Origin: Firmicutes bacterium HGW-Firmicutes-2
GTDB lineage: Bacteria; Bacillota; Clostridia; Lachnospirales; Vallitaleaceae
DNA: 64,000 nucleotides
Direction of reading: 5' to 3'
Assembly (NCBI GenBank): GCA_002841495.1
Contig: PGZV01000003.1
Coordinates: 1-64,000 of the forward strand
The notes beneath the pieces are model-generated. The model saw nothing but the letters and a program-made list of their open reading frames with translations. It searched no databases and had not been told where the DNA came from. The position numbers were made by a program, and so were the translations under genes. Within the stretch, counting starts at the first letter, position 1, and every line of letters begins with the position of its first letter. Of this stretch, positions 19,844 to 22,880 are shown piece by piece.

Positions 19844-20368
19844 CTATTCTGGTGAAATCAAACCAAATTGTCCATCTTTTCTTTTATAAACCACGGCAAG
19901 TTCCTCTGTATCTCGATCTCTAAATACAAAAAAACTATGTCCTAAAAGTTCCATTTCCATACATGCTTCTTCAGCATCCATCGGTTTTATAGGGAATTTT
20001 TTACTTCTAACGATAGCCAAACCTTCATCATCTTCATAATCAACCTGTGCGAAAGCAGTTCTAAAAGTTCCATGATGGCGATGACGATTAATTAATTTTT
20101 TCTTGTGTCTAAGCAATTGTCGCTCCAACACATCTATAACAAGATCTATAGCTGCATACATATTTTCAGCTTCTTCTTCGGCTCTTATAATGGTGCCTTT
20201 CAATGGCAAGGTAACTTCAATTATATGATTTTTCTTTAAAACACTCAAGGTAACCTGTACTTCGGTGTCTTCTGAAAAGTACTTTTCCAACTTACTGAGT
20301 TTATTAGTTGCCACTTCTCTTAATGCGTTGGTTATCTCGATATTTTTTCCACTTATTGTATAACGCAT
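19844..20368 (-). CDS. hpf: long-form hibernation promoting factor (RaiA/YvyD-like)
   Basis: Long HPF binds the 30S subunit and, through its C-terminal domain, dimerises 70S ribosomes into inactive 100S particles. The N-terminal domain starts MRYTISGKNIEITNALREV, followed by LEKYF and the basic LLRHKKKLINRHRHHG linker; the C-terminal domain contains IVRSKKFPIKPMDAEEACMEMELLGHSFFVFRD. The start at 20368 (174 aa) is preferred because AAGGAG lies 9 bases upstream; a TTG 18 bases earlier would overlap that site. A terminator follows directly. Confidence 0.95.
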   Translation of the reverse strand: MRYTISGKNIEITNALREVATNKLSKLEKYFSEDTEVQVTLSVLKKNHIIEVTLPLKGTIIRAEEEAENMYAAIDLVIDVLERQLLRHKKKLINRHRHHGTFRTAFAQVDYEDDEGLAIVRSKKFPIKPMDAEEACMEMELLGHSFFVFRDRDTEELAVVYKRKDGQFGLISPE

Positions 20369-20384
20369 ACGAACAACTCCTTTC

Positions 20385-20428
20385 AAACACGATAACGTGT
20401 TTTTACAAAATTATAGCTTTTGCTATAA
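20385..20428 (-). promoter_or_regulatory. two perfect hairpins in the hpf leader
   Basis: Directly upstream of the hpf ribosome binding site is a perfect inverted repeat AAACACG / CGTGTTT (20385-20402). Ten bases further upstream is another, TTATAGC / GCTATAA (20411-20428), followed on the minus strand by TTTTG. The first could affect ribosome access and the second could act as a weak attenuator. The base pairing is seen; the function is inferred. Confidence 0.4.
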
Positions 20429-20536
20429 TATTAATATTCTATATTTAATCCACTTATCCTTCTTTTGAAACCTCTTTTTTTAGTATTTTCCTGTTTAAGA
20501 AATGTCAGAAAATTGTGTGACCTTATTGAACACGCC

Positions 20537-20834
20537 TGTGGATAACCTGATTTTAATTATTATTTTAACTGCATTTACTTGTGGATAGTGTGTCCAACTC
20601 TGTGTACAACCCCATTTTTCAAGGATTTTTTTAGTTTTATGTGTGGATAATGCCATTTCAATAACTATATTATGTCAACATACTAATAAGGCATATGTTA
20701 TAGATATATCAATGTTTGAACATTACATATCGACTTCATGACTTCTTATTCCTACACGACTTGGAAAGCTTTATCGCGTATTTTCAAATCCTCGTAAAAC
20801 TTCTCTAATCTTCAATTTATAATACTGTGTATAA
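20537..20834. promoter_or_regulatory. cluster of DnaA-box-like sites
   Basis: TGTGGATAA, the complement of the canonical TTATCCACA box, occurs at 20537-20545 and 20642-20650. TGTGTATAA (fits TTATNCACA) is at 20826-20834, and one-mismatch forms TGTGGATAG and TGTGTACAA lie at 20580-20588 and 20601-20609. All have the same orientation. dnaA and dnaN are not here, so this is not a standard origin; a DnaA-binding regulatory cluster is more likely. Confidence 0.5.
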
Positions 20835-20880
20835 ACCTAGAGACACACAGATGGGTTTTCATGGGATAAGGATACGATAC

Positions 20881-21048
20881 AATAATACCATAGTAAGCCA
20901 ACACCGACTATGAAGTTCCTGGAGTAGTGTTAGCTACATAAGCCAGGTTACATGGATGTAACCGCCGACTTTTCCTACATGGATGTAGGAACAAGAGGCC
21001 GTTGTAGCTAATCCACGGAAGGGTTTTTATAGGACTATTGAAATAATA
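20881..21048. ncRNA. candidate structured RNA upstream of hpf
   Basis: The segment folds as a three-way junction. The closing stem is TTAGCTACA (20930-20938) with TGTAGCTAA (21003-21011), extended by TTCC/GGAA outside and GCC/GGC inside. Two perfect hairpins lie within, GGTTACATGGATGTAACC (20946-20963) and TTCC-TACATGGATGTA-GGAA (20972-20991). A further hairpin CATAGT/ACTATG is at 20889-20912. No ORF is present. An upstream location next to a raiA/hpf gene recalls the published raiA ncRNA motif, but I cannot confirm membership or strand. Confidence 0.5.
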
Positions 21049-21049
21049 C

Positions 21050-21093
21050 CAAAAAAAGTAGTAACCTTAGATTTGCATCCATGGCTACTACTT
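21050..21093 (-). terminator. intrinsic terminator of the hydrogenase operon
   Basis: On the minus strand AGTAGTAGCC pairs with GGTTACTACT (one bulge) and is followed by TTTTTTT. It lies about 25 bases past the hydA stop. Confidence 0.88.
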
Positions 21094-21116
21094 CTTTCTA
21101 AACATAATCTAAACTA

Positions 21117-22880
21117 TTATGCTTTATCTTTTTGACTATAATGTGTATGTAATAAATCATGGGCCTTGTGTGACATTGGCTCTCCAAGATACTTATCATA
21201 TAACTCCATTACCGCTTCATTTTCATGAGATTTTCTGATTGGCATGTCTTGATCAATCTGATAAATAGCATCCATACGTTTTTTGATGATGGATGAATCA
21301 CCGTGATGGTAAGGTTGTCCTCCACCACCGATACAGCCACCAGGACAAGCCATAACTTCAATGGCATGGAAGTTTCTAGGGTTACCATTACGGATCTCAG
21401 TAAGTAATGCCTTCGCATTACCTAGTCCGTGAGCAATACCAATATTTAGCTTCAAACCATCAAAATCAACTTCTGCAGCACGTACACCTTCAAAGCCTCT
21501 TAATTGCTCAAAATCAATTTTTGGTAAAGGTTTCTTAACATGAACTTCGTATGCGGTTCTAAGTGCAGCTTCAATAACACCACCCGTAGAACCAAAGATT
21601 ACACCTGCGCCAGTAGAAACACCAAGTGGCTTATCAAATTCTGAATCTTCAAGCTCGTCAATATCAATATTAACTTGTTCAATTAAATGCGCAAGCTCTC
21701 TGGTTGAGATTACAAGGTCTACATCCGGATTACCATCCACACTAAATTCAACTCTATCAGCTTCATATTTTTTAGCTAAACAAGGCATGACGGATACAAC
21801 TACCAAATCCTTACGGTCAATCTTTAGGATATCTGCGTAATAGGATTTTGCTACAGCACCGAACATTTGTTGAGGTGATTTTGCTGAAGACGGAATATCA
21901 ATTAAATCCGGGAATTGACTCTCAACAAAGTTAACCCATGCAGGACAGCATGATGTTAGTATTGGAAGTGGAACATCTTTTTCACCTGCTAGAAAACGTC
22001 CTAAACGTCCTAGAAGCTCTGTACCTTCTTCCATAATGGTTAAGTCTGCTGCAAAGTCAGTATCAAATACCTGATCAAATCCGATTTGCTTAAGGGCTGT
22101 CACCATTTTTCCTGTAATGATTGTTCCAGGAGCATGACCAAATTCTTCACCAAGGGCAACTCTAACTGCTGGTGCTACTTGAACGATAACGGTTTTTTCT
22201 GGATTCGCTAAAGCCTCAACAACTTTCCATGTATGGTCGTTTTCTGACAATGCGCCTACAGGACATACCGCTACACATTGACCACAATGGGTACAGACAG
22301 TTTCAGTCAATGGTAACTCAAAAGCAGGAGAAACTACGGCATTGAAACCTCTATTGATGCCTGATAAGGCGCCAACTTCTTGAACATTGTTACACATGGT
22401 TTCACATCTTCTACACATGATACATTTATCCATGTCTCGTATAATTGAGGTTGAATAATCCTTCTTATACGTTGACATTTCATTACCAGTAATATTTATG
22501 TCTCTAATTCCAATCATTTCAGCAAGATCTTGTAGTTCACACTCACCTGATTGAGAGCAAGTTAAACAATCTTTTGGATGATCAGACAGAATCAATTCTG
22601 TTACAGTCTTTCTTGTTTCAAGGACACGCATGGTATTTGTACGAACCACCATACCGTCAAGTGCAGGTGTTGCACATGAAGGTGCTAAATTGCCTCTACC
22701 TTCTACTTCAACCACACAAACACGACATGAAGCCGTTTGATTGACCATTTTTGTATCATGTAAATCTAAATGACATAAAGTGGGGATGGTTATTCCAAGT
22801 TTTTTGGCACCATCCAATATGGTGCTGCCTTTTGGAACAAAAACTTCTTTCCCGTCAATGACTATTCTAATATCTGACAT
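21117..22880 (-). CDS. hydA: NADH-linked [FeFe] hydrogenase, catalytic subunit HydA
   Basis: This 587-aa protein is the H-cluster subunit of a group A3, electron-bifurcating-type hydrogenase. In order: a 2Fe-2S ferredoxin domain (C36, C52, C55, C69), a His-ligated 4Fe-4S site (H101, C105, C108, C114), two 4Fe-4S sites (C153-C163 and C196-C206) and the H-cluster motifs TSCCPAW (309-315), MPCLAKKYE (365-373) and MACPGGCIGGGGQPY (510-524). All key cysteines are present. It ends a four-gene operon with hydB, a ferredoxin-like protein and a NuoE-like subunit. Bifurcation with NADH and ferredoxin is inferred from the family. Confidence 0.95.
   Translation of the reverse strand: MSDIRIVIDGKEVFVPKGSTILDGAKKLGITIPTLCHLDLHDTKMVNQTASCRVCVVEVEGRGNLAPSCATPALDGMVVRTNTMRVLETRKTVTELILSDHPKDCLTCSQSGECELQDLAEMIGIRDINITGNEMSTYKKDYSTSIIRDMDKCIMCRRCETMCNNVQEVGALSGINRGFNAVVSPAFELPLTETVCTHCGQCVAVCPVGALSENDHTWKVVEALANPEKTVIVQVAPAVRVALGEEFGHAPGTIITGKMVTALKQIGFDQVFDTDFAADLTIMEEGTELLGRLGRFLAGEKDVPLPILTSCCPAWVNFVESQFPDLIDIPSSAKSPQQMFGAVAKSYYADILKIDRKDLVVVSVMPCLAKKYEADRVEFSVDGNPDVDLVISTRELAHLIEQVNIDIDELEDSEFDKPLGVSTGAGVIFGSTGGVIEAALRTAYEVHVKKPLPKIDFEQLRGFEGVRAAEVDFDGLKLNIGIAHGLGNAKALLTEIRNGNPRNFHAIEVMACPGGCIGGGGQPYHHGDSSIIKKRMDAIYQIDQDMPIRKSHENEAVMELYDKYLGEPMSHKAHDLLHTHYSQKDKA

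Follow-up and report, generated by a model that had tools for sequence, protein, structure and literature searches.

A dispersed three-way-junction RNA with two GGA hairpins as a candidate CsrA-binding module in Clostridia

The 64,000-nt window analysed here, from contig PGZV01000003.1 of Firmicutes bacterium HGW-Firmicutes-2, carries one copy of an element, E1, that almost certainly belongs to a real, undescribed superfamily of dispersed RNAs, one that is missing from Rfam 15. The plus-strand transcript would fold into a three-way junction presenting two GGA-loop hairpins whose GGAs lie 27 nt apart, and one CsrA dimer is proposed to bind both. We assign a probability of roughly 0.6 to the reading that E1 is a dispersed RNA module binding CsrA, acting as a decoy when transcribed or as a docking site within a 3' UTR. 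As a decoy the module would titrate CsrA away from its targets, for example the flagellin leader, in an mRNA 3' UTR it would provide a CsrA docking site on that mRNA, and the modules would spread as intergenic repeats and together with insertion sequences. The main rivals to the decoy role are a cis-acting 3' UTR role and a role in mobility.

Structure and working strand of the element

The gene order around E1 is hpf (minus strand, 19844-20386), a gap of ~520 bp, E1, a terminator and the [FeFe]-hydrogenase gene (minus strand, 21117-22880), with both gene names taken from the protein sequences and the first-pass annotation and not from a family search. No open reading frame of at least 50 aa lies within E1. 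The first-pass annotation had described a closing stem enclosing two hairpins that share TACATGGATGTA; these are found where it placed them, with TACATGGATGTA at the tips of both H1 and H2, and covariation supports them. It had missed the outer stem (CTATGAAG/TTTTATAG), and the boundaries are now set at ~20905-21035, as kept in about 50 full-length copies. Upstream of hpf, a DnaA-box-like cluster at 20537-20655 (TGTGGATAA at 20537 and 20642, TGTGGATAG at 20580) is visible in all four Petrocella species.

Table 1. Features of the E1 copy in the window and of its immediate surroundings
Feature	Position	Strand	Remarks
Stray copy of E1's own 3' end, GGGTTTTCATGGGA	20853-20866	+	Empty site in sister genome G003 keeps one copy only
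Weak promoter-like pair TTTTCA-16-TACAAT	20856-20883	+	9/12; sole plus-strand transcription candidate here
Semi-conserved 5' leader AATAATACCATAGTAAGCCAACAC	20881-20904	+	Common to many E1 copies in alignments
Core of dispersed three-way-junction RNA (E1 copy)	20905-21035	+	Model R1 match, 130.7 bits
Outer stem P1, 5' arm CTATGAAG	20908-20915	+	Pairs with 21025-21032; seen in folds
Junction-closing stem P2, 5' arm GTTAGCTACA	20929-20938	+	TTAGCTACA at 20930-20938 within arm
Hairpin H1 GGTTACATGGATGTAACC	20946-20963	+	Loop GGA at 20954-20956
Hairpin H2 CCTACATGGATGTAGG	20974-20989	+	Loop GGA at 20981-20983, 27 nt from first GGA
Junction-closing stem P2, 3' arm TGTAGCTAA	21003-21011	+	Pairs with TTAGCTACA
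Outer stem P1, 3' arm TTTTATAG	21025-21032	+	Folds, covariation
Hydrogenase-gene hairpin terminator	21052-21097		Inverted repeat I1; T-run on minus strand

Taken alone, folding energy is moderate evidence for the structure: the plus-strand fold beats 200 of 200 shuffles with a z of -2.65 (minus strand, -4.2). It is covariation that puts the fold beyond doubt. Compensatory changes in relatives, proposed earlier as a check on the fold, were found in close and distant copies alike. An alignment of 21 close copies has 97.1% of its cells paired and two-sided changes in 24 of 46 pairs, and none of 500 shuffles reaches either figure; the outer helix P1 is 98.8% paired, and two-sided changes occur in 10/14 pairs of P2 and 5/7 pairs of the H1 stem. 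Among distant copies, whose alignment was fitted to the model and leans towards structure, two-sided changes affect 44 of 46 pairs (558 two-sided cells), with a covariation of 0.60 compared to about 0.06-0.11 for slid alignments.

The strand, previously left open, can now be resolved as plus from comparative sequence evidence. The E1 alignment read on the plus strand contains 263 G-U cells against 18 A-C cells, which assigns the working RNA to this strand, and the alifold energies agree, at -88.7 for plus vs -78.8 for minus (-69.3 vs -57.5 in E2, a second family described below). At loci orthologous between the window's genome (G000) and its sister G003, single-sided changes preserve pairing 46 times on the plus strand and 14 times on the minus strand (p = 4e-5). 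The 3' arm of P1 itself differs by a C-to-T change from G001 and G002, with pairing surviving only as G-U, on the plus strand. All of this counts against a working minus-strand RNA, namely an antisense RNA or 3' UTR element whose UCC loops would bind Shine-Dalgarno sequences, which we consider improbable. Such a loop is indeed complementary to GGA-type ribosome sites, and the downstream gene is convergent, reading towards the element, in 65 of 71 E1 copies, which places these copies just 3' of a minus-strand gene; a shared, bidirectional terminator could mark the end of the element, or the element's minus strand could often be transcribed. In the window, however, the terminator separates the gene from the element, and the copies borne by insertion sequences are sense on the plus strand.

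Distribution, age and mobility

By DNA search, the element proved abundant in the window's genome as well as in three sister genomes. Model R1 matched 52 times in the former, a Petrocella genome, and 63 times in the complete Petrocella genome G003. Model R2, built from diverse copies, added matches in G004 (8), G005 (7), G008 (3), G011 (5), G013 (12), G015 (40), G018 (2), G020 (1) and G021 (3), and model R3 added G007 (4), G048 (2) and G060 (4), the last two from another family and with a few weak matches, as well as G251 (7) from another order. The range thus extends from Petrocella to other Vallitaleaceae, to a neighbouring family and to a second order of Clostridia. Across distant copies sequence similarity is gone, and what is kept is the architecture of a long closing stem, a short H1, a longer H2 and GGA in the loops; because structure and not sequence is shared, a search for the exact pattern in 84,980 species returned Petrocella sp. 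FN5, a Firmicutes MAG corresponding to sister genome G002, and no others. Scanning 64-400 kb samples from each of several genomes with a simple descriptor of GGA hairpins, or of GGA-GGA three-way junctions, was uninformative.

Several variants accompany this architecture. In distant copies L242-L252, L074 and L077, tandem G-A mismatches flank H1 (GUGA-GCC..GGC-GAAC), a conserved non-canonical junction feature. A hairpin of 75-80 nt (CTCATAAGAAAGTT...AACTTTCTTATGA) is inserted in the three-way junction of L087-L090, L092-L095, L102, L113-L116, L141 and L142, with the GGA hairpins retained. The second family, E2 (~107 nt), is a three-way-junction RNA with two GGA hairpins, found at L064:1232-1338 (minus), L114:1861-1967 (plus) and about 20 more loci; it usually lies divergent from E1, 150-350 bp upstream, and the E2-E1 pair sits in convergent intergenic regions. 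A repeat of ~130 nt (AAGGAAAGTCATACTTTAGTATTCAGCC...) is inserted at differing positions of the E2 region in L026, L012 and L007.

The first-pass annotation had likened the position to that of the published raiA motif and proposed this identity, which our searches contradict. No Rfam family reaches threshold at the locus: a search of the window at gathering thresholds returned two tRNAs only, a sensitive search of 20380-21125 with E up to 10 gave chance-level matches only, and the raiA model (RF03072) had no match in 31 related genomes, although its control genomes gave none either. Both are structured RNAs near hpf/raiA in Clostridia, but E1 lacks any sequence or structure match to the raiA RNA, is dispersed and multicopy, and does not lie directly upstream of raiA/hpf on the same strand, hpf being divergent, on the other strand and across the gap given above. 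Since dozens of copies adjoin other genes, hpf is divergent and the sister-species hpf locus is without the element, the position next to hpf is incidental and has no special meaning. A raiA RNA, a member of another Rfam family or an ANTAR-type pair of hexaloop hairpins is accordingly most improbable, despite the location and the two hairpins, some of them hexaloops with A first and G fourth. ANTAR targets obey the hexaloop rule, and many loops here have only four or five bases (AGGA, AGGAC).

Most copies are old, as about 28 of 40 loci in the window's genome have the element at the orthologous G003 locus, with flanks diverged by ~13% between the species. At the G003 hpf locus the element is absent and one 20-bp copy of its 3' end remains; the pair L129/L321 repeats this empty-site pattern, while other sites are decayed remnants. 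Copies have been lost at some loci without obvious replacement, implying that no single copy is essential. Stray segments of 15-20 bp corresponding to the element's own 3' end precede about eight copies (the window copy, L048, L066, L103 and L129 among them), hinting at a product of specific recombination or excision. The earlier suggestion of an inserted element holds insofar as E1 is a dispersed repeat. The 10-mer AATAATACCA is indeed present at both of its ends (20881 and 21042), but it does not mark an insertion: as a target-site duplication it was rejected, since on the left it forms part of a conserved leader that many other copies have without the right-hand 10-mer. A phage or plasmid origin was also rejected, there being no DNA match.

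The module is carried in the 3' UTRs of ISLre2-type (PF06782) and ISL3 (PF01610) insertion sequences, on the transposase mRNA strand; in G003 the carriers are L083-L086 and L087-L090, four near-identical copies each, and in the ISLre2 case the module begins at the transposase stop codon. Could the fold then serve DNA mobility, as in a MITE-like element in which a transposase or recombinase recognises the single-stranded plus strand and any RNA is incidental? Consistent with this are the 52-63 copies per genome, the carriage by two IS families, the 20-bp 3'-end segment retained at empty sites, a possible 9-bp duplication (CTATTAATA/CTATTAGTA) at one copy, L040, and one G015 subfamily (L279-L283, L285), the only one with terminal inverted repeats (AGAAAAAGTGTTTTGT / ACAAAACACTTTTTCT), whose near-identical copies lie inside a MITE-like unit. 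E1 copies, however, show no consistent target-site duplication or terminal repeat, and the ISLre2-borne module travels in an element moved by another transposase. Moreover, in 13 intact ortholog pairs pairing is preserved in 53 of 69 stem changes, compared to 4/24 for a random substitution. Such upkeep in situ at shared loci indicates that the fold was selected after insertion or repaired by conversion, and gene conversion between copies could contribute. Like MITE, RUP, BOX and RU-1/2 repeats, E1 is short, structured, intergenic and present in many copies, but it differs from them in the compensatory upkeep of pairing at orthologous loci, the invariant GGA loops and the fixed spacing, which together point to a function in RNA. 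A mobility role, which also leaves the CsrA-type loops unexplained, is in our estimation unlikely.

GGA loops and CsrA as the putative partner

The GGA loops are close to invariant. Among 86 close copies, the H2 loop contains GGA in 84, and H1 does so in nearly every readable loop; in the distant set GGA occupies 100 of 103 hairpin loops and 49 of 51 copies have at least two GGA hairpins, figures to be read with the origin of R2 and R3 in mind, since the copies used to build these models carried GGA and their matches are biased towards it. The GGA-GGA distance is 26-29 nt in 147 of 149 copies. The base preceding GGA and the size of the loop do vary (UGGA, AGGA, GGGA, CGGA, AUGGAU, AGGAC). The spacing falls inside the range given for bridging by a CsrA dimer, which spans sites 10-63 nt apart with an optimum above 18 (PMC7652899). 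The SELEX consensus for CsrA is RUACARGGAUGU (PMC4347634), and the ISLre2-borne subfamily (AUACAAGGAUGU / AUACAGGGAUGU) matches it at 12 of 12 positions. The features of a CsrA site are thus all present: a short stem with A(N)GGA in its loop, a sequence near the consensus and, ideally, two sites 10-63 nt apart.

The window's genome encodes a canonical CsrA, including the -IHRKEVY- segment, with fliW, csrA and hag forming a single cluster. The leader of hag (flagellin) carries the hairpin CAGCAUGGAAGCUG ahead of the Shine-Dalgarno sequence, and the commonest E1 H1, CAGCAUGGAUGCUG (20 copies), is nearly identical to it; the G013 flagellin leader carries GGCAUGGAUGCC. In Bacillus subtilis the hag leader is a CsrA target, and the cluster is conserved here. 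The two RNAs share the GGA hairpin but differ in layout, the leader having one hairpin and a Shine-Dalgarno site at an mRNA 5' end, E1 two hairpins and no ribosome site. Short of experiment, we regard this match as the best evidence for CsrA. The csrA gene is present in each of the 17 module-bearing genomes, and none of nine csrA-lacking genomes searched has the module, an association that is weak and phylogenetically confounded (Fisher p about 0.04, counts approximate); in many csrA-bearing relatives no copy was detected. CsrA is quite probably the partner of this RNA family.

Transcription and relation to known systems

Transcription is the weak point of the decoy reading. A search for sigma-A promoters on both flanks and strands of the copies gave no enrichment over shuffles, and the TTTTCA-16-TACAAT pair of the window copy is not enriched across copies. 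E1 therefore does not qualify as an ordinary sRNA gene standing on its own, and the full-length copy alignment contains no terminator conserved within the unit. In the window, the hydrogenase terminator possibly stops plus-strand transcription as well. Alternatively, E1 may work purely in cis, as a 3' UTR element to which CsrA or a different protein binds, influencing the stability or termination of the upstream gene's transcript with no decoy action. The IS-borne copies do lie within 3' UTRs of transposase genes, and a co-directional gene precedes 18 of 23 copies in G015 and some 43 of 71 E1 copies; yet for the other 28 of 71, among them the window copy, the preceding gene is divergent, so that the element cannot belong to that gene's 3' UTR. 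We judge an exclusively cis-acting role unlikely, to the same degree as the mobility role, and a decoy or titration role moderately probable on the available sequences.

Close parallels among known systems include CsrB/CsrC and RsmX/Y/Z, the CsrA-sequestering sRNAs of Gammaproteobacteria, whose loop-GGA stem-loops E1 resembles; E1 would likewise compete for CsrA. E1 has several loop GGAs (two per unit) and resides in genomes encoding CsrA (17/17). It differs from the CsrB/RsmZ type, in which the sRNA has its own gene with promoter and terminator, since neither was found for E1; its unit consists of two hairpins on a three-way junction, it occurs in dozens of dispersed copies and not in a few sRNA genes, and its hosts are Clostridia that also have FliW.

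Decoy RNAs of the CsrB type have been characterised in Gammaproteobacteria, many bacteria with CsrA are reported to be without them, and the known CsrA antagonist of B. subtilis is the protein FliW (PMC4894983, PMC7652899). If the proposed reading is true, RNA titration of CsrA also occurs in Clostridia and is able to spread in the form of a mobile repeat. More tentatively, the CsrA network of Clostridia may be parasitised or buffered by a class of mobile RNAs present in many copies. Each dispersed repeat or insertion sequence would then contribute two CsrA sites at fixed spacing, and the level of CsrA in the host would be balanced against roughly a hundred decoy hairpins across the genome.
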